Source: Sinorhizobium sojae CCBAU 05684
GTDB lineage: Bacteria; Pseudomonadota; Alphaproteobacteria; Rhizobiales; Rhizobiaceae
DNA: 64,000 nt
Assembly (NCBI RefSeq): GCF_002288525.1
Contig: NZ_CP023067.1
Coordinates: forward strand, 2,232,001-2,296,000
Direction of reading: 5' to 3'
Shown: piece by piece, positions 6,549 through 51,889 of the stretch
Layout: the number at the start of each line of letters is the position of its first letter
Position numbering within the stretch: the first letter of the stretch is position 1
Translations under genes and position numbers: made by a program
Notes under the pieces: generated by a model
The model's database searches: none
Seen by the model: the letters and a program-made list of their open reading frames with translations, nothing else
Told to the model about the DNA's origin: nothing

Positions 6549-7274
<726 letters not shown>

Positions 7275-7295
7275 TCCGAGGGAGGCGCGATCGGC

Positions 7296-7396
7296 TACTG
7301 CATGTCTCCTTAAATCGACCTCGATTAAGGACATGCAGAACTTCAAAAGGCTGCAGCGACCTTCGCGCGTCCGAAAAGACGCGCGGCGCTGTAAGT
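7296..7396 (-). repeat. Rhizobial intergenic mosaic element (RIME-like), copy A
   Basis: A palindrome beginning CTGCATGTCTCCTTAAATCG is followed by a second stem containing CGCGCGTCCGAAAAGACGCG and ending CGCTGTAAG. The same modules recur in other gaps of this window, at 15704, 39171, 53292, 54249 and 56549. It separates ribH2 from the convergent regulator gene. Confidence 0.7.
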
Positions 7397-7497
7397 CGCG
7401 CCTCCAGCTTTGAATCCATTCCTCATCCGGGAGCGCCAGGCCCCTGATCCGACTGACGAAATCAGCGGCCGTTCGATCGGCACCTCAAATGCTTGAA

Positions 7498-8469
7498 TCA
7501 ATTCTTTAGCTTCAGCCGCCGGCGCGTTTCGCTCGGGCTCTCGCGATAATGCGCGCGATAGCTGCGCGAGAACGACGAAGAGGAATTGAAGCCGGAAATC
7601 GCCGCGATGTCGGCAAACTCCATCCGCGTCTCGATCACCTTGCGCCGCGCTGCATTGAGCCTCAGCGCCAGATAGTGCGCGTGCGGCGCCACGCCCATCG
7701 TCTCCCGGAAAAGGTCCTGCAGGTACCGCGCGCTGACGCCGACCCGGCGTGCCAGCTTTGCAAGCGTAAGCGGCGCCTCGACGGTTTCCTCCATCAGCCT
7801 GACCGCCGCGCCGACCCGGGAGTCGAGAATGCGCATATTGCCGATCGCCGGCACCTGCAAAAGGTCCCCGCGTGTGCGCTCCTGTTCATAGATGAAGAGG
7901 CGTGAGACTTCGAGCGCCAGCGAATAGCCATGCGCCCGCCGGATCAGTTCCAGCATCAGGTCGAGCGTCGGCAGCGATCCCCCGGTGGTGATGCGCTTGC
8001 CGTCGATGACGAAACGCTCGCGCACCATCGTCACCTGCGGATAGGTCGCAGCAAAGTCCTCGAAGTCCTCCCAATGGGTCGTCGCGGAGAAATTGTCGAG
8101 GAGGCTCGTCTCGGCAAGCAGCCAGGAGCCGGATTCGATCCCCGCCATCACCTCGCGGTGGCGCGCCGTCTGCGACAGCAGCATCTTCAAATGCGAGGTC
8201 GCGCTGCGCCGCCAATTGTAGCTCGACAGGACGAAGAGCGGCGCCGCCTCGCGCTGCGGCCGAAAGGGACCGGCGACCGGGATCGGAATGCCGCTCTTCG
8301 TCTCGATCGCTTCACCGTCCGGGCTGAACATCGTCCAGCTGTAAAGGCTGCGGCCGGCAATGCGGTTGGCGGCCCGCAATGGCTCCACGACCGAGGCGAC
8401 GAGGATGAGATTGGTCTCCGGCAGGACCAGCAAATCGACGTGCTGCACCCGCGAAGCAATAAGATCCAT
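7498..8469 (-). CDS. GlxA family AraC-type transcriptional regulator (CdhR-like)
   Basis: A 323-residue regulator with an N-terminal DJ-1/PfpI-like domain (about residues 10-170) and a C-terminal AraC double helix-turn-helix (about 220-320, with LTLAKLARRVGVSARYLQ and FADIAAISGFNSSSSFSR). The nucleophile elbow of the DJ-1 domain reads ESGSW, without the usual Cys, so it is a sensor and not an enzyme. Regulators of this family (CdhR, GbdR) activate carnitine and betaine catabolism in Pseudomonas. Here it is divergent from the carnitine cluster, which it probably controls. Confidence 0.9.
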   Translation of the reverse strand: MDLIASRVQHVDLLVLPETNLILVASVVEPLRAANRIAGRSLYSWTMFSPDGEAIETKSGIPIPVAGPFRPQREAAPLFVLSSYNWRRSATSHLKMLLSQTARHREVMAGIESGSWLLAETSLLDNFSATTHWEDFEDFAATYPQVTMVRERFVIDGKRITTGGSLPTLDLMLELIRRAHGYSLALEVSRLFIYEQERTRGDLLQVPAIGNMRILDSRVGAAVRLMEETVEAPLTLAKLARRVGVSARYLQDLFRETMGVAPHAHYLALRLNAARRKVIETRMEFADIAAISGFNSSSSFSRSYRAHYRESPSETRRRLKLKN

Positions 8470-8486
8470 TGCGAAACTTCCTCATC

Positions 8487-8525
8487 CTTTCCAATAATGT
8501 ATAGGATCGTTCCGCTTATGGAAAG
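8487..8525. promoter_or_regulatory. Candidate regulator site: inverted repeat in divergent promoter
   Basis: CTTTCC at 8487-8492 and GGAAAG at 8520-8525 form an inverted repeat with a 27-base spacer. It lies in the 107-base gap between the AraC-type regulator and the cleavage-enzyme gene. The position fits an operator for the regulator; the identity is inferred. Confidence 0.3.
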
Positions 8526-8576
8526 CAGCGTCGACCTTTCTGGCTCGTAATGGGCTCAACGAAAAGGGAGACAGCT

Positions 8577-9479
8577 ATGCCGCTCAGCATGAACCGTGAG
8601 GTTTTCATAACCTGTGCAGTCACCGGTTCGGGAGACACCGTTTCGAAATCCAGCCACGTTCCGGTGACGCCGAAACAGATCGCCGAAGCGTCGATCGAGG
8701 CGGCCAAGGCGGGTGCGGCAATCGTCCACTGCCATGTCCGCGATCCGGAGACAGGCGCTCCGGCCCGCCGCCTCGACCTCTACAGGGAAGTGACCGACCG
8801 CATCCGCTCCGCCGATGTCGACGTGGTCCTAAACCTGACCGCCGGCATGGGCGGCGACCTCATCTTTGGCAATGTCGAGAGCCCCCTTCCGGTCAATGAA
8901 AAAGGCACGGACATGGCCGGCGCCACCGAGCGCGTCGCCCATGTTGCCGAATGCCTGCCGGAGATCTGCACGCTCGACTGCGGCACCATGAACTTCTCGC
9001 TCGGCGACTATGTCATGACCAACACGCCGTCGATGCTGCGCGAAATGGCGCGCCAGATGACCGCGCTCGGCGTGCGTCCGGAAATCGAGGCCTTCGATAC
9101 CGGCCACCTCTGGTTCGCAAAGCAGCTCGTCGAGGAAGGTCTGATCGAGGATCCGGTGCTGATCCAGCTCTGCATGGGCATTCCGTGGGGCGCCCCCGAC
9201 GATCTCAACACCTTCATGGCGATGGTCAACAACGTGCCATCGACCTGGACCTTCTCGGCCTTCTCGATCGGCCGCAACGCCATGGCCTATCCGGCTGCCG
9301 CGATCCTTGCCGGCGGCAATGTCCGCGTCGGCTTGGAGGACAATCTCTATGTCGCGAAGGGCCGGCTCGCGACGAATGCCCAGCTCGTCGAAAAGGCGGT
9401 GACTGTGGTCGAGGGCATGGGCGCCAGGATCATCGGACCGGAAGAGGTTCGCGAGAAGCTGAAGCTGACGAAGAGGTAA
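8577..9479 (+). CDS. Beta-keto acid cleavage enzyme (BKACE, DUF849), probable 3-dehydrocarnitine cleavage enzyme
   Basis: A 300-residue member of the BKACE family. These enzymes split a beta-keto acid with acetyl-CoA to give acetoacetate and a new CoA ester. The zinc-binding motif HCHVRD is at residues 51-56, and a later conserved acid is in VGLEDN. The ATG at 8577 has the ribosome site AAAGGGAG and is preferred to an in-frame ATG at 8550. With the carnitine dehydrogenase next door, the likely substrate is 3-dehydrocarnitine, giving betainyl-CoA. As I recall, this reaction is described for Sinorhizobium meliloti. Confidence 0.9.
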   Translation: MPLSMNREVFITCAVTGSGDTVSKSSHVPVTPKQIAEASIEAAKAGAAIVHCHVRDPETGAPARRLDLYREVTDRIRSADVDVVLNLTAGMGGDLIFGNVESPLPVNEKGTDMAGATERVAHVAECLPEICTLDCGTMNFSLGDYVMTNTPSMLREMARQMTALGVRPEIEAFDTGHLWFAKQLVEEGLIEDPVLIQLCMGIPWGAPDDLNTFMAMVNNVPSTWTFSAFSIGRNAMAYPAAAILAGGNVRVGLEDNLYVAKGRLATNAQLVEKAVTVVEGMGARIIGPEEVREKLKLTKR

Positions 9480-9487
9480 GGCAAGAA

Positions 9488-9690
9488 ACCCCTCCCACCC
9501 CTCCCCACAAGGGGAGGGCTTAACCGGCCGCGCCGGCCGCGGATCGAAAGCAACGTCGGCATGCCTTGCTGAGCGTGTCGAACGACGAAGAAGGCGGCAG
9601 ACGAGTCTGCAAGAGGGAGAGAGAGATCCGGAGCCACCCAACCCTCCCCCTTGTGGGGAGGGTGGCCCGAAGGGCCGGGAGGGGTTCCCA
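9488..9690. repeat. Pair of inverted GC-rich repeats between two carnitine genes
   Basis: CCACCCCTCCCCACAAGGGG at about 9498 and its rough complement CCCTTGTGGGGAGGGTGGC at about 9648 lie in opposite orientation about 130 bases apart. They fill most of the 234-base gap between the cleavage enzyme and the dehydrogenase gene. Such CTCCCC/GGGGAG repeats recur in other gaps of the window. Confidence 0.6.
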
Positions 9691-9713
9691 CGGAGCAACA
9701 GGATGGATAACGA

Positions 9714-11204
9714 ATGACCATCATCACAAAGGCCGCCTGCATCGGCGGCGGCGTCATCGGCGGGGCCTGGGCGGCGCGCTTCGCGCTCGCCGGCATCGAC
9801 GTCAATATCTTCGACCCGCATCCGGAAGCCGAACGCATCATCGGCGAGGTCATGGCCAATGCCGAGCGCGCCTATGGCATGCTGACCATGGCGCCGTTGC
9901 CGCCGCGCGGCAAATTCACCTTCTGCAAGAGCATTGAAGACGCCGTTGAAGACGTTGACTGGATTCAGGAAAGCGTTCCCGAGCGGCTGCCGTTGAAGCG
10001 CGGCGTCATCACCGAGATCGACGCGGCCGCCCGCCCCGACGCGCTGATCGGCTCATCGACCTCGGGCCTGCTTCCTTCTGACCTGCAGGCGGAGATGAAG
10101 CATCCCGAACGCATGTTCGTCGCGCACCCCTACAACCCCGTCTATCTGCTGCCGCTGGTCGAACTCGTCGGAGGGAAGAAGACCTCGCCCGAGACGATCA
10201 GGCGCGCTGAAGCAGCCGTCGCCGAGATCGGGATGAAGGGCGTCGTCATCGCCAAGGAGATCGAGGCCTTCGTCGGCGACCGGCTGCTGGAAGCACTCTG
10301 GCGCGAGGCGCTCTGGCTCATCCAGGACGACATCTGCGACACCGAAACGCTCGACGATGTCATGCGCTATTCTTTCGGCATGCGCTGGGCGCAGATGGGC
10401 CTCTTCGAAACCTATCGCATCGCCGGAGGCGAAGCCGGCATGCGCCACTTCCTCGCGCAGTTCGGCCCCTGCCTCAAATGGCCCTGGACCAAATTCACCG
10501 ATGTGGTCGACCTCGACGACGCATTGGTCGAAAAGATCGGCGCGCAGTCGGACGCGCAGGCCGCGGGGCGGTCGGTCCGCGAACTCGAACGCATCCGCGA
10601 CGAAAATCTCGTCGGCATCATGCATGCCTTGAAAGCCGGAGACGGCGGCAAGGGCTGGGGCGCCGGCAAGCTGCTGGCCGATTTCGAAAAACGCCTCTGG
10701 GCCAAGGGCGGCGATCAGTCGAAAACATACGATGCCTCGCGGCCGCTGCGTCTCGTCGACACCAAGGTCAACGCCGCCTGGGTCGACTACAACGGCCACA
10801 TGACCGAGCATCGTTATCTGCAGCTCTTCGGCGATACGTCCGATGCGCTGCTCAGGCTGATCGGCGTCGACTTCGCCTACGTGCAAGCGGGCCACAGCTA
10901 CTACACGGTCGAGACGCATATCCGCCATCTCGGCGAGGCGAAGCCTGGACAGGCGCTCTACACGACGTTGCAGCTTCTGAGAGTCGACGAAAAGCGCATC
11001 CACTTCTTCACCAGCATTCATGATGCGGCCTCGGGCGACGTGATCGCTACCGCCGAACAGATGATGCTGCATGTCGACGCCAAGGCCGGCAAGTCGGTGC
11101 CGGCGCCGGCGGAGGTCATGGCGAAGCTGACGCCGATCGCGGAAGCGCATGCGAAGCTGCCGCCGCCGGAAGGCGCGGGGCGGCACGTGGGGCAGAGGCG
11201 GTGA
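9714..11204 (+). CDS. lcdH: L-carnitine dehydrogenase fused to a thioesterase (LcdH-TE)
   Basis: A 496-residue two-domain enzyme. Residues 1-320 resemble 3-hydroxyacyl-CoA dehydrogenases, with the NAD-binding motif GGGVIG at 11-16 and the HPYNPVYLLPLVE segment. They would oxidise L-carnitine to 3-dehydrocarnitine. Residues 345-480 form a hotdog thioesterase domain (AAWVDYNGHMTEHRYL), likely hydrolysing betainyl-CoA to glycine betaine. The fusion thus joins the steps before and after the BKACE reaction encoded upstream. Such fusions are known in rhizobial carnitine catabolism. The last 20 residues are low in conservation and run into a repeat. Confidence 0.92.
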   Translation: MTIITKAACIGGGVIGGAWAARFALAGIDVNIFDPHPEAERIIGEVMANAERAYGMLTMAPLPPRGKFTFCKSIEDAVEDVDWIQESVPERLPLKRGVITEIDAAARPDALIGSSTSGLLPSDLQAEMKHPERMFVAHPYNPVYLLPLVELVGGKKTSPETIRRAEAAVAEIGMKGVVIAKEIEAFVGDRLLEALWREALWLIQDDICDTETLDDVMRYSFGMRWAQMGLFETYRIAGGEAGMRHFLAQFGPCLKWPWTKFTDVVDLDDALVEKIGAQSDAQAAGRSVRELERIRDENLVGIMHALKAGDGGKGWGAGKLLADFEKRLWAKGGDQSKTYDASRPLRLVDTKVNAAWVDYNGHMTEHRYLQLFGDTSDALLRLIGVDFAYVQAGHSYYTVETHIRHLGEAKPGQALYTTLQLLRVDEKRIHFFTSIHDAASGDVIATAEQMMLHVDAKAGKSVPAPAEVMAKLTPIAEAHAKLPPPEGAGRHVGQRR

Positions 11205-11227
11205 TGAGAGGTGGCGGTGGGATGAGC

Positions 11228-11376
11228 TGCCCCTCATCCCGCTGCCGCGACCTTCTCCCCGCGAGCGGGGAGAAGGGACCTGCCGCAACCACTCGCCCAG
11301 CTCTCATAGTCGGGAGAGGCTGCAAGGGCGTCCCCTTTCCCCGCGCGGGGAGAGGGCTAGGGTGAGGGGCAAATAG
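11228..11376. repeat. GC-rich CTTCTCCCCGC-type intergenic repeat
   Basis: The gap contains CCTTCTCCCCGCGAGCGGGG followed by AGAAGGGAC, and then a second copy around CCCCGCGCGGGGAGAGGG. Both form strong stems. The same type recurs at 25200, 26905, 33005, 40122, 47565 and 53405. No gene is seen in this 239-base gap. Confidence 0.65.
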
Positions 11377-11443
11377 CCAAGCACGCCCGAGCCGAACGGG
11401 AGATCGGTCATGGCAGGCGGGCCAAAATTGACGAGGGAGAACG

Positions 11444-12604
11444 ATGAATTTCGCACTGTCCGAAGAACAAGAGATGATCGTCGACACGGTCCGCAGCTTC
11501 GTCGAGACGGAGATCTATCCGCATGAGAACGAGGTCGAGCGCACCGGTATCGTGCCACGCGAGCTCGGTCTCGAGATCGCCCGCAAGTGCAAGGACATAG
11601 GTTTCTTCGCCTGCAACTTCCCCGAAGAAGTTGGCGGTGCCGGGCTCGATCACCTGACCTTCACGCTGGTCGAGCGTGAGCTCGGCCGTGGTTCCATGGG
11701 ACTCACCGTTTTTTTCGGCCGCCCATCCGGCATCCTGATGGCCTGCAATGACGAACAGCGCGAGCGCTATCTGCTCCCCGCCGTCCGCGGCGACAAGTTC
11801 GACGCGCTTGCGATGACCGAGCCGGACGCGGGTTCCGATGTGCGCGGCATGAAATGCTTCGCCCGGCAGGACGGCGACGACTGGATCGTCAACGGCACGA
11901 AGCACTTCATCAGCCATGCCGACATTGCCGATTTCGTCATTGTCTTCATCGCCACCGGCGAAGAAGAGACGCCGCGCGGTCCGAAGAAGAAGATCACCTG
12001 CTTCCTCGTCGATCGCGGCACGCCGGGCTTCGAAATCCGCGAAGGTTACAATTCTGTCTCGCATCGCGGCTACAAGAACTGCATCCTGACCTTCGACGAT
12101 TGCCGCCTGCCCTCTTCCCATATCCTGGGCGAGGTCCACAGGGGCTTCGACCTCGCCAATGACTGGCTCTATGCGACGCGGCTGACCGTTGCCGCGACCT
12201 CCGTCGGCCGCGCCCGCCGCGCTTTCGATTACGCGCTCACCTATGCGGCCGAGCGCAAGCAGTTCGGCAAGCCGATCGGCGCCAACCAGGGCGTCTCCTT
12301 CAAACTCGCCGACATGATCACCGAAATCGACGCCGCCGATCTGCTGACGCTTTCGGCCGCCTGGAGGCTCGACCAGGGCCTGCCGTCGAACCGGGAGATC
12401 GCTTCGGCAAAGGTCTTCGCCACCGAAATGCTCGCCCGCGTCACCGACGAGGCGATCCAGATCTATGGCGGCATGGGCCTGATGGATGACCTGCCGCTCG
12501 CCCGCTTCTGGCGGGACGCCCGCGTCGAACGCATTTGGGACGGCACCTCGGAGATCCAGCGGCACATCATCAGCCGTGATCTTCTTCGGCCTCTGGGGGC
12601 TTGA
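11444..12604 (+). CDS. Acyl-CoA dehydrogenase, probable gamma-butyrobetainyl-CoA or crotonobetainyl-CoA related
   Basis: A 386-residue flavoenzyme with the acyl-CoA dehydrogenase layout: N-terminal helical domain, FAD signature AMTEPDAGSDV around residue 125, and C-terminal RVERIWDGTSEIQRH. The catalytic base position, normally Glu in EGTSEIQ, is Asp366 here. Within the cluster it would interconvert gamma-butyrobetainyl-CoA and crotonobetainyl-CoA, next to CaiD and a CoA ligase. Electrons should pass to an electron-transfer flavoprotein encoded elsewhere. Substrate is inferred from the neighbours. Confidence 0.85.
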   Translation: MNFALSEEQEMIVDTVRSFVETEIYPHENEVERTGIVPRELGLEIARKCKDIGFFACNFPEEVGGAGLDHLTFTLVERELGRGSMGLTVFFGRPSGILMACNDEQRERYLLPAVRGDKFDALAMTEPDAGSDVRGMKCFARQDGDDWIVNGTKHFISHADIADFVIVFIATGEEETPRGPKKKITCFLVDRGTPGFEIREGYNSVSHRGYKNCILTFDDCRLPSSHILGEVHRGFDLANDWLYATRLTVAATSVGRARRAFDYALTYAAERKQFGKPIGANQGVSFKLADMITEIDAADLLTLSAAWRLDQGLPSNREIASAKVFATEMLARVTDEAIQIYGGMGLMDDLPLARFWRDARVERIWDGTSEIQRHIISRDLLRPLGA

Positions 12605-12608
12605 GGGA

Positions 12609-14693
12609 ATGGCGGTTGTTCTTGGCACAGAAAGAGCCCCTCCCCGGTCCCTCGACCGCCTCATCCGCCCGCGCTCCATCGCCGTCTTCGGCGGCAAGGA
12701 GGCCCACCGGGTCATCGAGCAATGCGATCGGACGGGTTTTTCCGGCCAAATCTGGCCGGTTCATCCGCGCGAAGAGGAAATCCTCGGCCGCCGCTGCTAC
12801 CGCTCGGTCGCCAAACTGCCGGAGGCACCGGACGCCGCCTTCGTCGGGGTTAACCGAGCGCTGACGATCGACATCATCCGAGAACTCTCAGCACGCGGCG
12901 CCGGCGGAGCCATCTGCTATGCCTCCGGCTTCCGGGAGGCAGCAAGCGAACTTTTCGACGGCACGGACCTTCAAGAGGCATTGGTCGCGGCTGCCGGCGA
13001 CATGCCGATCGTCGGGCCCAATTGCTACGGCTTCATCAACATGCTGGATGGCGCCCTGCTCTGGCCGGATCAGCATGGCATGCAGCGGGTCGCGCGCGGC
13101 GTGGCCGTTCTCACGCAATCCTCCAACATAGCCTGCAACATCTCGATGCAGAAGCGGGGGCTGCCGCTCGCCTATGTCATGACTGCCGGCAACCAGGCGC
13201 AGACCGGGCTTTCCGACCTCGCCTGTGCCGTCGTAGAGGATCCGCGCGTCACCGCCGTCGGCCTCCACGTCGAGGGTTTCGACAGTATCGAAGCGCTGGA
13301 GCGTCTGGCGGAGCGTGCCCGGGAACTGCATAAGCCGGTCGTGACGCTCAAGGTCGGCAAGTCGGAAGCCGCGAAGCTTGCGACAATCTCCCACACCGCC
13401 TCGCTCGCCGGCAACGATCGCGTCTCTTCGGCGCTTCTCGCCCGCCTCGGCATCGGCCGCGTCGACACGCTTCCGGAGCTTCTCGAAACGCTGAAGCTCC
13501 TGCATCTACACGGCCCGCTCGGGAGCGCCGATATTTCCTCGATGAGCTGTTCGGGCGGCGAGGCGTCGCTCATGGCGGATGCCGGCGTCAAACGGCGGGT
13601 CAATTTCCGTCCCCTGCGGGAGGATCAGCGCCAGCCGCTCAAGGAAAGCCTCGGCGAAATGGTGGCGATCGCCAATCCGCTCGACTACCACACCTTCGTC
13701 TGGGGCAATCGCGAAAAGCAGACGACCGCCTTTATCGCCATGATGCGGGGCGGCTATGCGCTCAACCTGATCGTGCTCGACTTTCCGCGCCTCGACCGCT
13801 GCGACGCCGCCGACTGGGTGACGACCTGCGAAGCTGTGATCGACGCGGCCAAGACGACCGGCGCCGCCGCGGGAATCGTCGCCAGCCTCGGTGAAAACAT
13901 GCCGGAGGAAACGGCACTCTCGCTGATGGGAGCAGGCGTCGTGCCCTTCTTCGGCATTGATGAGGCGCTCGCCGCCGCCGAGGTCGCCGCCGCCATCGGC
14001 GCGGCCTGGGCGAGACCAGCCGCCCCGCCGCTTATGGCGGCGGCGGTCCCGGATGGCGAAGCCGTTACCCTGACGGAAGCTGAGGCCAAGGCGGAACTCG
14101 CGCGAGCCGGCATCGCCGTTCCGCCGGGCAGGACCGCCAAGTCGCCGACGCAAGCGGCGGACGCCGCCGAGGTGCTGGGTTTCCCCGTGGTGCTCAAGGG
14201 GCTGGGCATCGCGCACAAGACCGAAGCCGGCGCAGTCAGGCTCGATCTCACGAGTCGCGATCAGGTCCTAGCCGCGGCCGAGGCGATGGCCTTGGTCGCG
14301 CCCGGCTTTCTGGTGGAGAAGATGGTCGCCAAGCCCGTCGCGGAAGTGATCGTCGGCGCCATGCGGGATGCGGTCGCCGGACCCGTTCTGACCATCGGCG
14401 CCGGCGGAATTTTGGTGGAACTGTTGGACGACACGGCGATCCTGACGCTTCCGACGACGGAAGAGGCAATCCGCGAAGCCATTCACGGCCTGAAGATCAG
14501 CAGGCTGATGGGCGGCTATCGCGGCGCGCCGAAGGCAGATGTCGCATCTCTCGTAAGAGTTGTCGCTGCCGTGGCATCCTATGTCGTTGCAAACGCTGCG
14601 AAACTCGACGAACTGGAAATTAATCCTATAATGGTGTTGCCGGACGGCTACGGAGCCGTAGCCGCCGACGCCCTGATCCGCCGGAGGAAATAA
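12609..14693 (+). CDS. Acetate--CoA ligase (NDP-forming)-like acyl-CoA synthetase
   Basis: A 694-residue single-chain NDP-forming acyl-CoA synthetase. Residues about 15-140 form the CoA-binding Rossmann domain, 155-460 the succinyl-CoA-ligase-like part with the phosphohistidine motif SHTASLAG (His262), and 480-690 the ATP-grasp domain (VLKGLGIAHKTEAGAV). It begins four bases after the dehydrogenase stop, with GAGGGA just upstream. It would activate gamma-butyrobetaine or crotonobetaine to the CoA ester with ATP, replacing the CaiC or CaiB route of enterobacteria. Its exact substrate is inferred from context. Confidence 0.87.
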   Translation: MAVVLGTERAPPRSLDRLIRPRSIAVFGGKEAHRVIEQCDRTGFSGQIWPVHPREEEILGRRCYRSVAKLPEAPDAAFVGVNRALTIDIIRELSARGAGGAICYASGFREAASELFDGTDLQEALVAAAGDMPIVGPNCYGFINMLDGALLWPDQHGMQRVARGVAVLTQSSNIACNISMQKRGLPLAYVMTAGNQAQTGLSDLACAVVEDPRVTAVGLHVEGFDSIEALERLAERARELHKPVVTLKVGKSEAAKLATISHTASLAGNDRVSSALLARLGIGRVDTLPELLETLKLLHLHGPLGSADISSMSCSGGEASLMADAGVKRRVNFRPLREDQRQPLKESLGEMVAIANPLDYHTFVWGNREKQTTAFIAMMRGGYALNLIVLDFPRLDRCDAADWVTTCEAVIDAAKTTGAAAGIVASLGENMPEETALSLMGAGVVPFFGIDEALAAAEVAAAIGAAWARPAAPPLMAAAVPDGEAVTLTEAEAKAELARAGIAVPPGRTAKSPTQAADAAEVLGFPVVLKGLGIAHKTEAGAVRLDLTSRDQVLAAAEAMALVAPGFLVEKMVAKPVAEVIVGAMRDAVAGPVLTIGAGGILVELLDDTAILTLPTTEEAIREAIHGLKISRLMGGYRGAPKADVASLVRVVAAVASYVVANAAKLDELEINPIMVLPDGYGAVAADALIRRRK

Positions 14694-45030: not shown

Positions 45031-47490
45031 ATGTTTGAACGTCTTGGCATTCGCGGTCATCTGCTGTTCGCCTTCTTCGGTATCAGCACCTTCGCGGTGC
45101 TTGCATCCGCCGGCGCCCTGTACGCCTTCCTGCAGTTGAGTCAGGTGCTCGAACGGGTTACGGAGCGCCGGGTCCCATCCGCAACCGCATCGCTCGAACT
45201 CTCCCGCCACGCCGAGCGGGTCGCGGCCACGGCACCCGCCGTCCTTGCTTCGACCAGCAAGGCGCAACATAGCGAGATGTCGGCCGCGATCAGGAGCGAG
45301 ATGGCGCGCCTCGAAGAGCTGCTCGCTGCGCTTAAAGGTGCGACGCTGAGCTCGGCCGTCGTCGGTGAAATCGAAGACGCGGCGGTCGGTCTTCGGCGCA
45401 ACCTCATTGCTCTCGACAATCTTGTCACTGTCCGGCTCGCTGCTATTGCACGCAAGGACGAACTCATACGGCGCCTGTCGACCACAACCAGTGCCAGCCA
45501 GCGACTTGTCGCACCAGGTATCCTCGTGATGAGCTCCAAGGTACCGCGCTGGCGCGCTGCCACGGCCGATGAAAAAGCGACGCCCGAGGCACGATCCGCC
45601 GCGACCACGGACCTGGCGCGTGCAATCGCCGCCTACTTTCCCCAGCAGGCCGCGCAGCGGGAGATCTCGGCCATCAACGATACGCTCTTGCAGGCGGCAT
45701 CCGCACCGACGCGCGGCGACTTGTCGCTGCTTTCGTTTCCCTTGCACCGCTCGATCGATGCCCTCGAGGCGGTGACACCCGAATTCGATGAGCAACTGCG
45801 CGCACGATTTCAGCAGCTCGTCGACGAATTCAAGGCGCTGATCGACGGGCCAAGGAGCATCCCGGACGCGCGCGACGAAGAGCTCGCAGTGCTGGCAGAG
45901 GGCGAAAGGCTGGTGGCGGAGAACGATCGGCTGTCGCGCAAGCTAACCTTTGCCGTGGACCGCCTGGTGGCGGCCGCCAAGGGTGATATCGCCGAGGCGG
46001 GCCGTGAAGCCGTTATGGTTCGCAGCTTCGGTACCGGGATCGTCCTTGGCTCCGCACTTCTCAGCCTGCTGAGTTCGATCCTGATCGTTTGGCTCTATGT
46101 CGACCGCAACCTCCTGGCCCGTCTCGCAGGTTTGAGCCGCAGCATGCTCGCGATAGCGGCCGGCAATCTTCGGGTGCCGCTGCCGGAACCCGACGGCGAT
46201 GAGATCGGTCGTATGGCCAAGGCACTTCGCGTATTCCGCGACACGGCGGTCGAGGTCGAGGAAAAGAACCTGCGCGATGTCGCCGAAGCCCGCCAGCGTC
46301 TGGTCGATGCGATCGAAAGCATTTCGGAGGGCTTCGCCTTTTATGACGGAGATGACCGGCTTCTCCTCTGCAACAGCAGATATCGTGAAATCCTCTATCC
46401 GGGAATGGACGAAACCGTCGTGTCCGGAACCCGGTTCGTGGATATCGTCCGCGCGGCGGCGGAACGCGGCCTGATAGAGGACGCGATTGGCCGGGAGGAA
46501 GAATGGGTCGCCGAGCGTCTCGCAGCTCATCGCAATCCCTCCGGAACGCTCCTGCAGCAGCGTGACCCGGATCGCTGGATCCAGATCAGTGAACGCCGGA
46601 TTTCAGGCGGCGGCACCGTTGCGGTCTATTCGGACATTACCGAGTTGAAGCGCCGGGAGCAGGATCTTTCCGAGAAAACGACAGCGCTCGAGGCACTCTC
46701 CGCCAAACTTGCCAAATATCTTGCGCCGCAAGTCTACAGCTCCATCTTCAGCGGCCGCCAGGACGTCAAGATCGAGAGTCAGCGAAAGAAGCTGACGATC
46801 TGTTTCTCCGACATTGCGGCATTTACCGAGACGACGGACAAGATGGAATCGGAGGAACTGACCCAGCTCCTTAACCAATACCTGACCGAAATGTCGAAAA
46901 TCGCGCTCGCCTTCGGCGCAACCGTCGACAAATATGTCGGCGACGCCATATTGATGTTCTTCGGCGACCCCGAGACCCGGGGGGGGAGGGAGGACGCGAT
47001 CGCCTGCGTTTCGATGGCTCTTGGCATGCAGAAACGAATGGGCGAACTCGGTGAAACCTGGCGCGGAATCGGCATCGAGTCGCCGCTACGTTGCCGGATC
47101 GGTGTTCATACTGACTACTGCACGGTCGGCAACTTCGGCAGTGAAGACCGGATGGATTACACGATCATCGGCGGCGCTGTAAATCTCGCTGCACGCCTCG
47201 AGCACGAGGCGGCGCCCGGAACCGTGCTCATCTCCTACGAAACCTTCGCGCAGGTAAGGGACCTGATCCACTGCGAGGAGATGGGGCGCATCCGCGTCCG
47301 GGGAATAGCCTATCCCGTCGCCACCTACCGCGTCGTCGACTTCCGGGCGAACCTGAGTGGGGGTTCTCAGGCAATCCGAACTGAACTGCCTCATCTGAGA
47401 CTTGAGGCGGAGCCTGAACTCATGTCGGCCGGCGAGCGCGAAGAGGCTGTTGCCGCCCTTCGACGGACCCTCTACCAGCTCTGTCGCTAA
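45031..47490 (+). CDS. Transmembrane class III adenylate/guanylate cyclase with HAMP and PAS domains
   Basis: An 819-residue signalling protein. Membrane segments at about 9-33 and 335-357 enclose a long helical periplasmic sensor. HAMP follows at about 358-412, a PAS-like domain at 420-535, a short coiled coil, and the cyclase domain at about 585-760. The metal-binding aspartates are Asp594 (FSDIAAF) and Asp638 (KYVGDAI); the [15 protein letters not shown] segment is also intact, so it should be active. The layout resembles a chemoreceptor with a cyclase output. The upstream periplasmic protein is the likely ligand partner. Confidence 0.92.
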
Positions 47491-47755: not shown

Positions 47756-48970
47756 TCACGACGCAATCGCCTTCGACAGGGCCCGCGGACCGAAAAGGCG
47801 AGCTCTTTCGCCCTCCGGGTGCTCGAGCGCCGGGACGAAGATTTTGACGACGGAAAAGGGCAGATCGCCGCGAGACAATGGCACGGCAATCACCCGCTCG
47901 ACCCCCACACTCTTCAGCCGATCGACGACGTGGCGCAGCAGCACATCGACACCACCGGCTATGCCGGAAGCCTGAACCGCCTCCGCCCGCGGCACCGCCA
48001 GGAAGGCGCGTCGCGTCGATTCGGGCAGCGGACGCTCAAAAGTCGCGGAATAGACGTCGTCGCGGGCGCCGCTAATATAGGTGAGCCGCGACTGCGCCGC
48101 CTCGGTGACCGCCCGTATTGCGGCGCGGATGGCGGAGGGATGCGCACCGCAGCCGCTCGTCACCTCCACATAGCGCAGCCGCCCGGCGGTCGCCGTGCCG
48201 CGCGGCCCGAGAAGCGCCAGGAAGCAGGGAATGCCGGCGTCGCTGGTGATATCGAAGATCCGCAGGTCGAGCTCCGCATCGTGAATGCGGCTGGCGAGCC
48301 CGTCGAGCGCCGGATCGCCAAGCGCCTCGGGGGCAATGCATTGCCGATGGCGGGCCTCGGGACCGGACACCTGCCAGAGAACATGCGCGTCGCGCTCGAC
48401 CCGCTCCAGGAGACCGTGGAGGGTCGCCTCGTCTTCAATGTTTCCCGAAGCGAGCCCGTCGGAGGACACCCAGAAGCGCGAGGGCCGCGTGCGGTCGAGC
48501 AGCGCCGCCTCGAGCGGCACGAACACGTCGCCGTCGGAGATGAGATCCGTGCCGCGTACCCACTCGATCGTTTCATCCCCGAGGAGATCCCCCTGCCCCG
48601 CGGCAATCAGCGCGTCGAGCGGATCGACAGCCTGCCCTGAGCCGCTGAGTTCGTCGGCCGTCGCCATCACCGTTTCGACCGCCGGCTGGCCGGCAACCGC
48701 GCGCTCCAGCGCTTCCATGACGGCGGATATGCGCGCATCCGCATCCGTCAGGCCCTTGCCCTGCGCAACGACGATGGAGCGGGAATTCGGCGTATAGGCA
48801 CACCAGACCGGGATTCCGACCTTGTCGAGACCCGTGTGCCGGGCGACGCGCGTCACCCCGAAAGCGGCAAGATATGGACGAACGCGGGCGAAAGTTTCTT
48901 CCGGGGTGCACACCCGGTCGGAATAGCTATTGCCCGCGTTCGGCCGCTTCTCGATTTCGAGAGCGATCAC
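47756..48970 (-). CDS. YcaO-domain protein, probable peptide-backbone-modifying enzyme
   Basis: A 404-residue YcaO protein starting at the GTG at 48970, which overlaps the stop of the 71-residue peptide gene (GTGA). The family's ATP-binding residues appear intact: SAVMEALER (Glu86, Glu89), LLERVER (Glu189, Glu192), and TEAAQSR (Glu290, Gln293, Arg295). YcaO enzymes use ATP to activate peptide amide bonds, forming azolines, amidines or thioamides. The C-terminus lacks the PxPxP ending of azoline-forming members. No TfuA, E1-like or dehydrogenase partner is adjacent. The small peptide is the obvious candidate substrate. Confidence 0.9.
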   Translation of the reverse strand: MIALEIEKRPNAGNSYSDRVCTPEETFARVRPYLAAFGVTRVARHTGLDKVGIPVWCAYTPNSRSIVVAQGKGLTDADARISAVMEALERAVAGQPAVETVMATADELSGSGQAVDPLDALIAAGQGDLLGDETIEWVRGTDLISDGDVFVPLEAALLDRTRPSRFWVSSDGLASGNIEDEATLHGLLERVERDAHVLWQVSGPEARHRQCIAPEALGDPALDGLASRIHDAELDLRIFDITSDAGIPCFLALLGPRGTATAGRLRYVEVTSGCGAHPSAIRAAIRAVTEAAQSRLTYISGARDDVYSATFERPLPESTRRAFLAVPRAEAVQASGIAGGVDVLLRHVVDRLKSVGVERVIAVPLSRGDLPFSVVKIFVPALEHPEGERARLFGPRALSKAIAS

Positions 48971-49182
48971 GAGTCGACGTGACCGGAGAAAACCTTGTCG
49001 GCCGAGGACACTGCGACCGCGAGATCGACATCCTTGACGAAGGCGCTGCCCGGCTTGCGAAGTGCGTTCACGCTCGCGAGATCGCCCGTCACGGAACCAA
49101 GGGCTCTTACCGTGCCGTTTCCAAGATCTGCTACCCACAAGCCCGGTTCGCCGGCAATTCCGATCACAACCACTTTAGCCAT
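48967..49182 (-). CDS. 71-residue peptide, candidate YcaO substrate or partner
   Basis: A 71-residue protein starting MAKVVVIGIAGEPGLW and ending DKVFSGHVDS, with the good ribosome site AAGGGAAG. It has no Cys. Ser residues are at 30, 37, 46, 59, 60, 66 and 71 and Thr at 24 and 32. The N-terminal third looks like a beta-strand pair, the C-terminal third is Ser- and Asp-rich. Its stop overlaps the YcaO start, so the two are translationally coupled. This fits a precursor of a modified peptide, but a small accessory protein is also possible. I recognise no known family. Confidence 0.75.
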   Translation of the reverse strand: MAKVVVIGIAGEPGLWVADLGNGTVRALGSVTGDLASVNALRKPGSAFVKDVDLAVAVSSADKVFSGHVDS

Positions 49183-49205
49183 ATTTCTTCCCTTCATGCC
49201 TTCGG

Positions 49206-51023
49206 TCAAAAACCCGCTTTCTTCAACCCCTCGCGGTAGAGATCCTTCTGCCACTGTTCCTTGAACGGAATGACAGCGAGCCACCTGTCGACGTCGAAGG
49301 TCGGATTGACTTTCGACGCCCGCATCCTGTGCTGGCGCGCCTTCTTCCGGTCGCCAAGCATCGCCCAACTCGCAGCGACGATCCTGTCCGCGGGCGTCTT
49401 GTCCTTCATCCTTTGCACAAAGCCGATGCACTCCTCGTATTGTCCAAGGAAGTAACTGGCACCCGCGGCACTCCAGAGATAGGCGTCCGGCGCGAGCGGA
49501 TTGAGCGAAAGCGCCTTCTCAAGCTTGTCCAGCGCCTCGGCCGGACGGGAAGCATGTACGAGCGTGTCGGCATGGCTGTAGAGCACGTCGGCATAATGCG
49601 GACTCAATTGCTCGGCCTGGTCGAGCGCCGCAAGGCTCTCGTCCAGATCGCCTCGGTAGAGCTTGACGACACCCACCTCGCGGTGGGCGGCAGGCAGCAC
49701 ATCATTGCTCTCGATAGCATCCTTTGCGTGTCGCTCCGCCATCGAGAGAAGCTCTTCGTCGGCGCGCGCGGTCAGAAGCCATTCGTTGACATAGGTGCGG
49801 GCGATGCCGCTCTGCGCGGGCGCGAAATCCTGCTTACACTTCAGCGCCTCACGGAAATCGCGGCGCGCCCGGCGAACCTCCGGCAGGCCGAGGCCCGAAA
49901 GATGCCTGAGGCCGCCGAGATAGGCATAATAGGCCTCCGGATGTTCCAGGTAATCCAGATGCTCGGCCCGCCCGGTCTCGACCCGGTGCGTCACTTCAAA
50001 GGCGATATGATAGGCGATCTGCTCTCGCTGCTGGAGGAGGCCGACCGGCGAAATGGGAAAGCGCTCCGCCCAGACGATCTGGTCGGAAGGCAGGAAGATG
50101 AGCTGGGTGAAAAGGCCCCGATCCGACATATGGCAATCGAGCGCATAGGTGACGCCATGTTTTTCGAGGAACGCGGCCTTGTCCGCGGCGTCGCGAATGC
50201 GCTCGGCCGTATAGGGTGCTACGACCGACATCGAGCGTAGCGAACAGAGCCCGATGGTGATGTCCTCGATCACCGCCACGCTGACGGCGTGGAGCATGGG
50301 GTCGCTGCCGAAGGCGGCAGGCGGAAGCAGCGCGACCCGCGGCACCGGCGCCATGTCCAGCGCGCTGCCCTCCACCGGCATTTCCCGGGCGAATGCGCCG
50401 GGCGGCAACAATGCCCTGGGTGAAGCAACCTCCAGCAATGGACCGCGGCTGACGCGCTCGAGAAGTCCGACAATGACCGTGTCCGCCGGGTCGAGCTCGA
50501 GCAGGTGCATTGAGGCCGTGCGCAGCGTCGCCCGATCGGAAAACCGCTCTTCGGCATCTATCAGCGCGGCCCGCAGGCGGTCCGTGAAATCCCGCCGCTT
50601 CTCCACCACCCAGTCCGTATAGCGCCCGGGCGGCAGGTCCGCGAAGGCAAGGAAGGTTTCGCGCCAGAGCGAAAGCGCCTTGCGGAAGTTTTCCTCCGAG
50701 CCCTTCAGCGCTTCGAAATCGGCAAGGTCCGAGGTGACCTGTCCGAGCGTCACCTCCGCTTCGGTCGCCGACAGGACCGGTCCTCCGCCGGTCGCCAGAT
50801 GCCGCATGCGCCAGAGTGTCGAGCGCAGGTTGTTGAAGGCGACGGCCTTTTCCCGTTCGGGCCAGATCAGCGCCGCCAGCTTCTCGCGAGAAGCCACCTT
50901 CCGTTCGGATGCGGCAAGATAGGCAAGGATCATGAGGCCGCGCTCGGGGCAGCCGACGGCATTGCCGTCGGCATCGATCAGACGCAACTCCCCGAAGGTT
51001 TGAAGATGGTAGCCGCCCGTCAC
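49206..51023 (-). CDS. Winged-helix (OmpR/SARP-like) regulator with bacterial transcriptional activator and TPR domains
   Basis: A 605-residue protein. Residues about 8-90 form a winged helix (SREKLAALIWPEREKAVAFN), and 95-185 resemble a BTAD domain (LWRETFLAFADLPPGRY). About 225-340 contain a TolB-like segment (PRVALLPPAAFG). Residues 365-600 form TPR-like helical repeats (YADVLYSHADTLVHASRPAE). It lies 23 bases before the small peptide gene and seven bases after the XRE regulator gene. Such proteins usually activate nearby genes, so control of the peptide-YcaO pair is likely. No phosphorylation domain is present. Confidence 0.87.
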   Translation of the reverse strand: MTGGYHLQTFGELRLIDADGNAVGCPERGLMILAYLAASERKVASREKLAALIWPEREKAVAFNNLRSTLWRMRHLATGGGPVLSATEAEVTLGQVTSDLADFEALKGSEENFRKALSLWRETFLAFADLPPGRYTDWVVEKRRDFTDRLRAALIDAEERFSDRATLRTASMHLLELDPADTVIVGLLERVSRGPLLEVASPRALLPPGAFAREMPVEGSALDMAPVPRVALLPPAAFGSDPMLHAVSVAVIEDITIGLCSLRSMSVVAPYTAERIRDAADKAAFLEKHGVTYALDCHMSDRGLFTQLIFLPSDQIVWAERFPISPVGLLQQREQIAYHIAFEVTHRVETGRAEHLDYLEHPEAYYAYLGGLRHLSGLGLPEVRRARRDFREALKCKQDFAPAQSGIARTYVNEWLLTARADEELLSMAERHAKDAIESNDVLPAAHREVGVVKLYRGDLDESLAALDQAEQLSPHYADVLYSHADTLVHASRPAEALDKLEKALSLNPLAPDAYLWSAAGASYFLGQYEECIGFVQRMKDKTPADRIVAASWAMLGDRKKARQHRMRASKVNPTFDVDRWLAVIPFKEQWQKDLYREGLKKAGF

Positions 51024-51030
51024 GATAGGC

Positions 51031-51399
51031 TCAACGGTGCGACAGCTTCAGAAGACCACGCCCCGGTACGACCCACCGGATCGGCCGCCGCTTCCTGTTC
51101 GATAGGAACCCTGATGCCCGGCCCATCCCCGCTCCTGTCTCGACTGTGTCGCCCGATCCGCCGGCCGAGGACGGCAGATCCTCGAAAAAGAAATAAAAAT
51201 GCACATCCAGGATTTCCGCGACCCTCTCCAGGCGCCTTGCGGAGACCCGCGACTCACCCTTTTCAACTTTCCGGATTTCCCCGACGGACACGCCCAAAGC
51301 CGCAGCCATGTCGCCCTCGCCCATCTCCAGCATCGTGCGGCGAAGCCGAATACGACGACCGACAAAAACGTCGATGGTATTGGGCAAGCGACGCCCCAT
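51031..51399 (-). CDS. XRE family helix-turn-helix regulator
   Basis: A 122-residue protein with a Cro/CI-type helix-turn-helix at about residues 14-68 (LRRTMLEMGEGDMAAALGVS, then KVEKGESRVSARRLERVAEI). A Gly/Arg-rich tail without known motif follows. This form (FVGRRIRLRR near residue 12) is common in rhizobia. It heads the four-gene minus-strand operon that ends in the YcaO gene, and is probably its repressor or activator. The stop is seven bases from the next start. Confidence 0.88.
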   Translation of the reverse strand: MGRRLPNTIDVFVGRRIRLRRTMLEMGEGDMAAALGVSVGEIRKVEKGESRVSARRLERVAEILDVHFYFFFEDLPSSAGGSGDTVETGAGMGRASGFLSNRKRRPIRWVVPGRGLLKLSHR

Positions 51400-51889
51400 C
51401 CGACGGCTCCCGCATCAACTGCTGGCTGCTCATGTAGAAGGATGCTTGAAAATGCGGAGGGATGCAACCCGAAGGTTAGGGTGGTGCACAGGGTGGTATG
51501 TCGCGGCGATGCTGCTTCGGGCGGGGGTCGAGCAAGCATAACGTAACAGCCAGGGCAAATCCGAGCTTCACAACGATCCCGCCGTACCTGCGGTGAATTG
51601 CCGTGGTTAAGTAGCGACTGAGCAGGCCCAAGCAGCCCCCAGGTGGCACACAACTATTGCCTTGACACAGGGAAATGATGGTCAGAAGTCGTAATCATCT
51701 GGCCGCCCTCGTCGCAGTGCATCGCGCTAGGAACAACCTCGATCAACAAGGCTCTTTGGGTCTTGAAACGACGGAGAGCATCCGAACTGAGGTAGCAAAT
51801 GCGTCCAATCTCCGCCAACCTGGGACGACCGGAATGCGCTAGAAGCGGTCAGGGCGGATAAAGAACAACCCTTTAGTTGGAGATGTAAG
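51400..51889. other. 490-base intergenic region with no recognisable gene
   Basis: It should hold the promoter of the XRE-led operon on the left and that of the monooxygenase-like gene on the right. It reads less GC-rich than its flanks in places (for example GGCACACAACTATTGCCTTG). I find no RNA gene or dispersed repeat. The frame at 51727-51966 on the minus strand overlaps the next gene and lacks support. Confidence 0.5.

Follow-up and report, generated by a model that had tools for sequence, protein, structure and literature searches.

A peptide–YcaO operon and an unlinked tfuA gene suggest a split thioamide pathway in Sinorhizobium

Introduction

What might a YcaO enzyme do to a small peptide encoded beside it when no TfuA gene adjoins, and where could such a partner come from? 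The question is raised by a compact operon of the root-nodule bacterium Sinorhizobium sojae CCBAU 05684 located in a stretch of 64,000 nucleotides (contig NZ_CP023067.1, positions 2,232,001 to 2,296,000), here called the window, to which coordinates refer unless another replicon or locus is named.

Operon organisation and gene context

The operon comprises four open reading frames, all on the minus strand and separated by gaps of 7, 23 and -4 bases, and all coordinates of a preliminary description of the locus could be reproduced. An XRE-family (HTH_3) DNA-binding regulator of 122 aa (51031..51399; PF01381, 32.7 bits) is followed by a 605-aa regulator with tetratrico peptide repeats (TPRs) and a weak winged helix (49206..51023), by a 71-aa peptide that is very probably the precursor of a ribosomally made, modified peptide (RiPP) (48967..49182), and by a 404-aa YcaO enzyme predicted to thioamidate a peptide backbone (47756..48970). 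The preliminary description had assumed two dedicated regulators, and this holds for the XRE protein, which passes the HTH_3 threshold, and for the clear TPRs of the second protein (PF07719/PF13414 above cut-off), but less so for the winged helix of the latter, as its Trans_reg_C/HilA-like N-terminus stays below the Pfam cut-off (PF00486, E = 0.0038). In nearly all relatives the TPR gene precedes the peptide gene, and no other two genes of the system stay together as consistently; in one locus (L070) the relative of the 605-aa regulator is annotated as 'adenylate cyclase'. The XRE homologue is absent from the operons of the S. meliloti/medicae type in a scan of 67 loci.

The start codon of ycaO is a GTG that overlaps the stop codon of the peptide gene. 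This overlap, taken earlier as a sign of coupling between substrate and enzyme, is present here (-4) but confined to Sinorhizobium, short gaps being found in other genera. None of the genes adjoining ycaO codes for a TfuA, an E1-like protein, a dehydrogenase or an exporter, and neither an RRE nor a hydrolase gene lies near it. A class III adenylate cyclase-like gene (45031-47490) is convergent with ycaO; it was considered as a member of the system and rejected, being matched in one of the 67 loci (37%).

The YcaO enzyme and its relatives

The YcaO protein scores 225 bits against PF02624 (cut-off 25.7). Its motifs SxxxExxER, ExxER and ExxQ align with those of the Methanocaldococcus jannaschii YcaO, and their Glu, Arg and Gln residues are invariant in 35 homologues, which bears out the earlier statement that the ATP-binding residues are kept. 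The best match of a structure model (pLDDT 88) is the M. jannaschii enzyme (6PEU, E = 1.2e-25), followed by the heterocyclase LynD and then by the M. kandleri YcaO. Among NCBIfam models the best is TIGR03266, which describes the thioamidation of McrA; with 202.9 bits against a cut-off of 365 bits, the protein does not belong to this McrA-glycine equivalog.

Outside Sinorhizobium, tfuA follows directly after ycaO in 55 of 57 loci, as compared to none of the 10 Sinorhizobium loci of the same scan, and in a quick tree with SH-aLRT support the window-type YcaOs form one clade without a local tfuA, nested among tfuA-linked YcaOs. Given this linkage in the relatives, the enzyme is best assigned to the YcaO-TfuA (thioamide) family, as a member whose local tfuA was lost. 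Of the features that define thioamidated RiPPs of the TfuA-YcaO type, the YcaO domain with its ATP-binding motifs, a precursor with leader and core near ycaO, and descent from tfuA-linked YcaOs are all present. Since tfuA does not adjoin ycaO, neither here nor in the other genomes of the clade, the operon is regarded as a variant and not as a standard member. The features of azol(in)e RiPPs (TOMM/LAP), an E1-like/ocin-ThiF protein or an RRE together with a core rich in Cys, Ser and Thr, are absent.

A precursor peptide with one core

In 61 of 67 Rhizobiaceae loci the peptide gene lies immediately upstream of a related ycaO, an association that goes beyond chance. In the remaining six (L020, L023, L030, L033, L038 and L054) the XRE gene lies near ycaO without any match to TPR, that is, TPR and peptide genes would have been deleted together. 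The window peptide represents a single-core form with a leader of about residues 1-51 and a presumed core of about residues 52-71, VDLAVAVSSADKVFSGHVDS (48970..49029, minus strand), the boundary being deduced from relatives in which the homologous segment is tandemly repeated. Thus, the C-terminal segment occurs two to three times in the related peptides of Rhizobium rhizogenes (L071) and of two Sinorhizobium genomes (L167, L169), e.g., as DADLAVCFEAKESAFSGHFYKTGSA / AVIAVAFETKEPAFSGHVYRTGST / VDIAVAFETKEPAFSGHMYRTPAE. Related leaders also occur in other families of the order, there with different repeats behind them (AAGGLFERSE six times, SGGFLEA four times, RSDAASHHYFPNRG eight times, DTRSDAASHIFYGVDRAVAA six times), so that in distant relatives up to eight repeats take the place of the single core; the repeats were verified at the DNA level in L223, L210 and L167. 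Ser/Thr content varies among these repeats and Cys is rare. The window peptide lacks Cys and is poor in Ser/Thr, with Ser present in its core.

Such an architecture, a constant leader ahead of one to eight variable cores, is typical of multi-core RiPP precursors, e.g., those of the thiovarsolins (PMC6511847), and, together with the adjacency to ycaO, argues strongly for the claim of the preliminary description that the peptide is the substrate of the YcaO enzyme, which we regard as almost certain. Mean pairwise identity amounts to 53% in the leader and 56% in the C-terminal part, dN/dS of the peptide gene ranges from 0.12 to 0.24, and a low-confidence structure model predicts a folded N-terminus (beta-meander) and a loose C-terminus. 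A known family with another function, which would have spoken against the substrate role, was not encountered, as searches of Pfam, NCBIfam and PDB gave no match beyond chance. The possibility of a disguised RRE was likewise dismissed: Foldseek listed RRE chains (5why, 5v1u), none of them significant, and profile comparison with PqqD relatives gave a probability of 0.2.

The expectation that the peptide gene would always adjoin ycaO holds for the large majority of loci but not for three genomes (G003, G004 and G023) that carry it elsewhere. In these, a solitary window-type YcaO occurs without TPR or peptide gene (L166, L168, L170), implying that YcaO, too, acts in trans. Conversely, TPR-peptide pairs with no YcaO nearby are found in L193, L194, L195 and L221. 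In L023 and L030 (Rhizobium) the TPR gene is missing and the peptide gene is cut, with fused scraps beside an intact YcaO-TfuA pair. A short YcaO remnant (L169:5458-5608) directly follows a window-type XRE-TPR-peptide set in a genome that has an intact window-type YcaO about 500 kb away, and a further match to the window-type YcaO (G007:C3:2271494-2272696) contains one internal TAG stop, which may mark a recent pseudogene or reflect an end effect.

A TfuA gene on another replicon

The preliminary description had noted the lack of a TfuA gene. This is correct in so far as none adjoins ycaO, but a lone tfuA resides on another replicon of the same genome. The assembly (three contigs, 6.09 Mb) codes for two YcaOs and two TfuAs, of which one TfuA belongs to a distant YcaO-TfuA pair and the other stands alone on contig C2. 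The distant pair (L075, G000:C1:2062000-2080000, at about 6639-13712 of that locus) is accompanied by genes for a cyclase/AAA-like regulator (1066 aa), a protein of 394 aa that contains an HExxH-like motif, and one of 222 aa starting with MSDCCCNPGVG; a similarly distant pair is found in most genomes of the genus.

When YcaOs and TfuAs were paired by position in all 33 genomes of the genus, YcaO, peptide and TfuA were found in 33/33. The genomes are related, and the counts that follow do not represent independent events. All 22 genomes with a window-clade YcaO have exactly one TfuA of this subfamily, which in 19 of them is an orphan with no YcaO beside it; in S. glycinis (G011) a TfuA gene adjoins the operon in divergent orientation, and in G004 and G023 the sole TfuA of the subfamily adjoins another, third YcaO. 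In the 11 genomes of the other YcaO clade (clade B), peptide, YcaO and TfuA are together throughout, and orphan TfuAs are absent (0/11). Purifying selection is evident from dN/dS values of 0.10-0.23 for the orphan TfuA and of 0.10-0.37 for peptide, YcaO and orphan TfuA jointly.

In the five clade-B genomes examined, the complete operon has the order XRE-TPR-peptide-YcaO-TfuA ... nrtA, preceded by acd wherever the retrieved sequence extends far enough. The orphan site (acd | XRE-TfuA ... nrtA) is syntenic with this operon of the sister species, its XRE and TfuA being 79-80% and 65-67% identical to their clade-B counterparts, and the TfuAs of both kinds of site form one clade (support 95/97). 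The XRE protein next to the lone tfuA shares about 45% identity with the window XRE. The simplest reading is that TPR, peptide and YcaO genes were lost at the orphan site whereas XRE and TfuA were kept; the reverse order, with an orphan state older than the clade-B operon, would also be compatible with the tree. In five genomes (G003, G004, G011, G019 and G023) the old site keeps the XRE gene and its upstream element, TfuA is gone, and the genome has a TfuA from another clade; the original is thus missing exactly where a substitute exists.

A shared upstream element

Alignment of upstream regions revealed a bipartite element, TTGCA-N12-TTCNAGCA, that precedes the XRE gene of the operon, of the orphan site and of clade B. 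In the window it reads TTGCA-N12-TTCAAGCA (51443..51467, minus strand) and lies upstream of the XRE gene, 44 bp from its start. This 25-bp pattern has exactly two exact matches in the 6.09-Mb genome, the one in the window and one at C2:509205-509229 upstream of the lone XRE-tfuA. In the 33 genomes the pattern is matched 65 times and its reversed control about 25 times. Of the 65 matches, 37 lie at operon or orphan loci, to which the five old sites that lost TfuA are to be added; as the pattern was drawn from operon and orphan loci, its occurrence there is in part built in, whereas its rarity elsewhere is not. Some genomes of the S. meliloti type have no element before the operon. The element is a probable operator or promoter element common to the operon and the unlinked XRE-tfuA, and since both loci share it together with an XRE gene they are probably co-expressed.

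A split thioamide pathway and its alternatives

Gene order, the architecture of precursor and core, the local absence of tfuA, its distant retention or replacement, the shared element and purifying selection can be read from the sequence directly, and a likely explanation for them is that the single core of the peptide is thioamidated by YcaO together with TfuA, whose genes lie on separate replicons and are probably under common regulation. The operon would yield a single-core precursor and its modifying enzyme, the leader would be the part that is recognised, and YcaO would use ATP to activate at least one backbone amide in the C-terminal core, into which sulfur would be inserted with the help of TfuA to give a thioamide. 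TfuA would act in trans from its gene on the other replicon, which would have stayed behind when TPR, peptide and YcaO genes vanished from an ancestral complete operon, and the two loci would be expressed together. The thioamide, the action of TfuA in trans, the joint expression of the two loci and what becomes of the product are inferences. With no exporter linked to the operon, the product may act inside the cell, as the preliminary description proposed, or may leave it.

TfuA is not universally required, since some methanogens make thioglycine without it, among them the species of the M. jannaschii and M. kandleri enzymes, which have no tfuA (PMC5589413) and whose YcaOs are among the closest structures, and the E. 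coli YcaO thioamidates uL16 (PMC13063428). With such archaeal precedents (PMC5589413) the distant TfuA may be dispensable for the modification, the YcaO acting alone, and the orphan TfuA might have a different function. Against the split reading also count the position of the subfamily's sole TfuA next to another YcaO in G004 and G023, the missing element before the operon in some genomes of the S. meliloti type, and a tree compatible with either order of events. However, a TfuA of the subfamily is kept in 22/22 genomes, another clade's TfuA is present where the old one was lost, and the shared element ties both loci, so that we consider a TfuA-independent enzyme unlikely. As to the chemistry, the preliminary description had listed azoline, amidine and thioamide products. 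The thioamide is by far the likelier of these, given the tfuA-linked relatives and the TfuA on the other replicon. Stand-alone YcaOs do form azolines or macroamidines in the bottromycin and streptamidine pathways (PMC4603692, PMC8442711), and Ser residues in the core, or the backbone, might serve here without any TfuA; but the enzyme is nested in a tfuA-linked clade, Ser/Thr content differs among the core repeats of relatives, in which Cys is rare, and E1-like, RRE, dehydrogenase and hydrolase genes are lacking nearby, which renders this chemistry quite improbable.

Conservation from end to end, the predicted beta-meander and TPR-peptide pairs without YcaO (L193-L195) would suit a folded accessory protein, i.e., an adaptor or a regulator ligand, and not a substrate. 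Yet the repetition of the C-terminal segment two to eight times behind an unchanged leader is the signature of multiple cores, and similarity to PqqD-type RRE profiles is lacking, leaving this role with a very small probability. Finally, decay is seen in related loci, with the TPR-peptide deletions and the YcaO fragment in L169, and might suggest that the Sinorhizobium operon is itself a relic after the loss of tfuA; this is strongly disfavoured and hardly credible, as neither YcaO nor the peptide nor the lone TfuA is disrupted, all three are under purifying selection, and YcaO, peptide and TfuA occur in every genome of the genus. The split thioamide pathway is the explanation retained here.

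Relation to known systems

The preliminary description knew of no system with this gene set, which applies to the form without a local TfuA but not to TfuA-YcaO RiPP clusters as such, which are known to be abundant in Rhizobium (Malit et al. 2021, PMC8120280). These clusters likewise combine a YcaO of the tfuA-linked type with a short precursor gene, and the Rhizobium relatives of the window operon resemble them in having tfuA directly after ycaO; there, the pair is adjacent, whereas in Sinorhizobium tfuA lies on another replicon, and a split form would probably be missed by a description in terms of adjacent genes. The thiovarsolin pathway (Santos-Aberturas et al. 2019, PMC6511847) shares YcaO, TfuA and a precursor family that extends from single-core forms to tandem repeats, but is actinobacterial, has other precursors and places every TfuA beside a YcaO. 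The YcaO/TfuA system for McrA thioglycine in methanogens (Nayak et al. 2017, PMC5589413; PDB 6PEU/6PE3) provides the closest solved structure and the best NCBIfam model, but its substrate is a large enzyme subunit, whereas the window YcaO, below the equivalog cut-off, comes with a peptide substrate gene. RiPPs of the streptamidine type (PMC8442711) also combine a stand-alone YcaO and a precursor without E1 partner or local TfuA, and differ in precursor motifs, in the amidine product and in occurring mainly in Actinobacteria.

Across the phylum (398 genomes) matches were confined to the same family, and within the order 30 of 397 genomes had matches. A tandem of two peptide-YcaO systems is found on pC5.7c of R. 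rhizogenes (L071, 2296-13107), the first followed by a broken TfuA and the second comprising a 3-core precursor and a TfuA; further on lie genes for an iron-containing redox enzyme, a methyltransferase and a transporter as well as cysE. By its description, the redox enzyme gene may parallel the heme-oxygenase-like varO of the thiovarsolin pathway (PMC6511847).

Implications

Systems of this kind are known, but neither the split arrangement nor the precursor family appears to have been described in the searchable literature. On balance, we favour the reading of a stably split RiPP pathway, in which precursor and YcaO are encoded on one replicon and the needed TfuA on another under a shared upstream element, genus-wide and with TfuA swapped for that of another lineage where it was lost, and of a precursor family with a constant leader and one to eight cores as a new thioamide-peptide family of the Hyphomicrobiales. 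The peptide system is present in all 33 genomes of Sinorhizobium, a major genus of nitrogen fixers, and no role for it was found in the searchable literature. Genome mining based on adjacent ycaO and tfuA genes would overlook split pathways of this kind. If TfuA works in trans, laboratory strains of the S. meliloti type would offer a clean genetic test of its role, i.e., substrate recruitment versus sulfur delivery.
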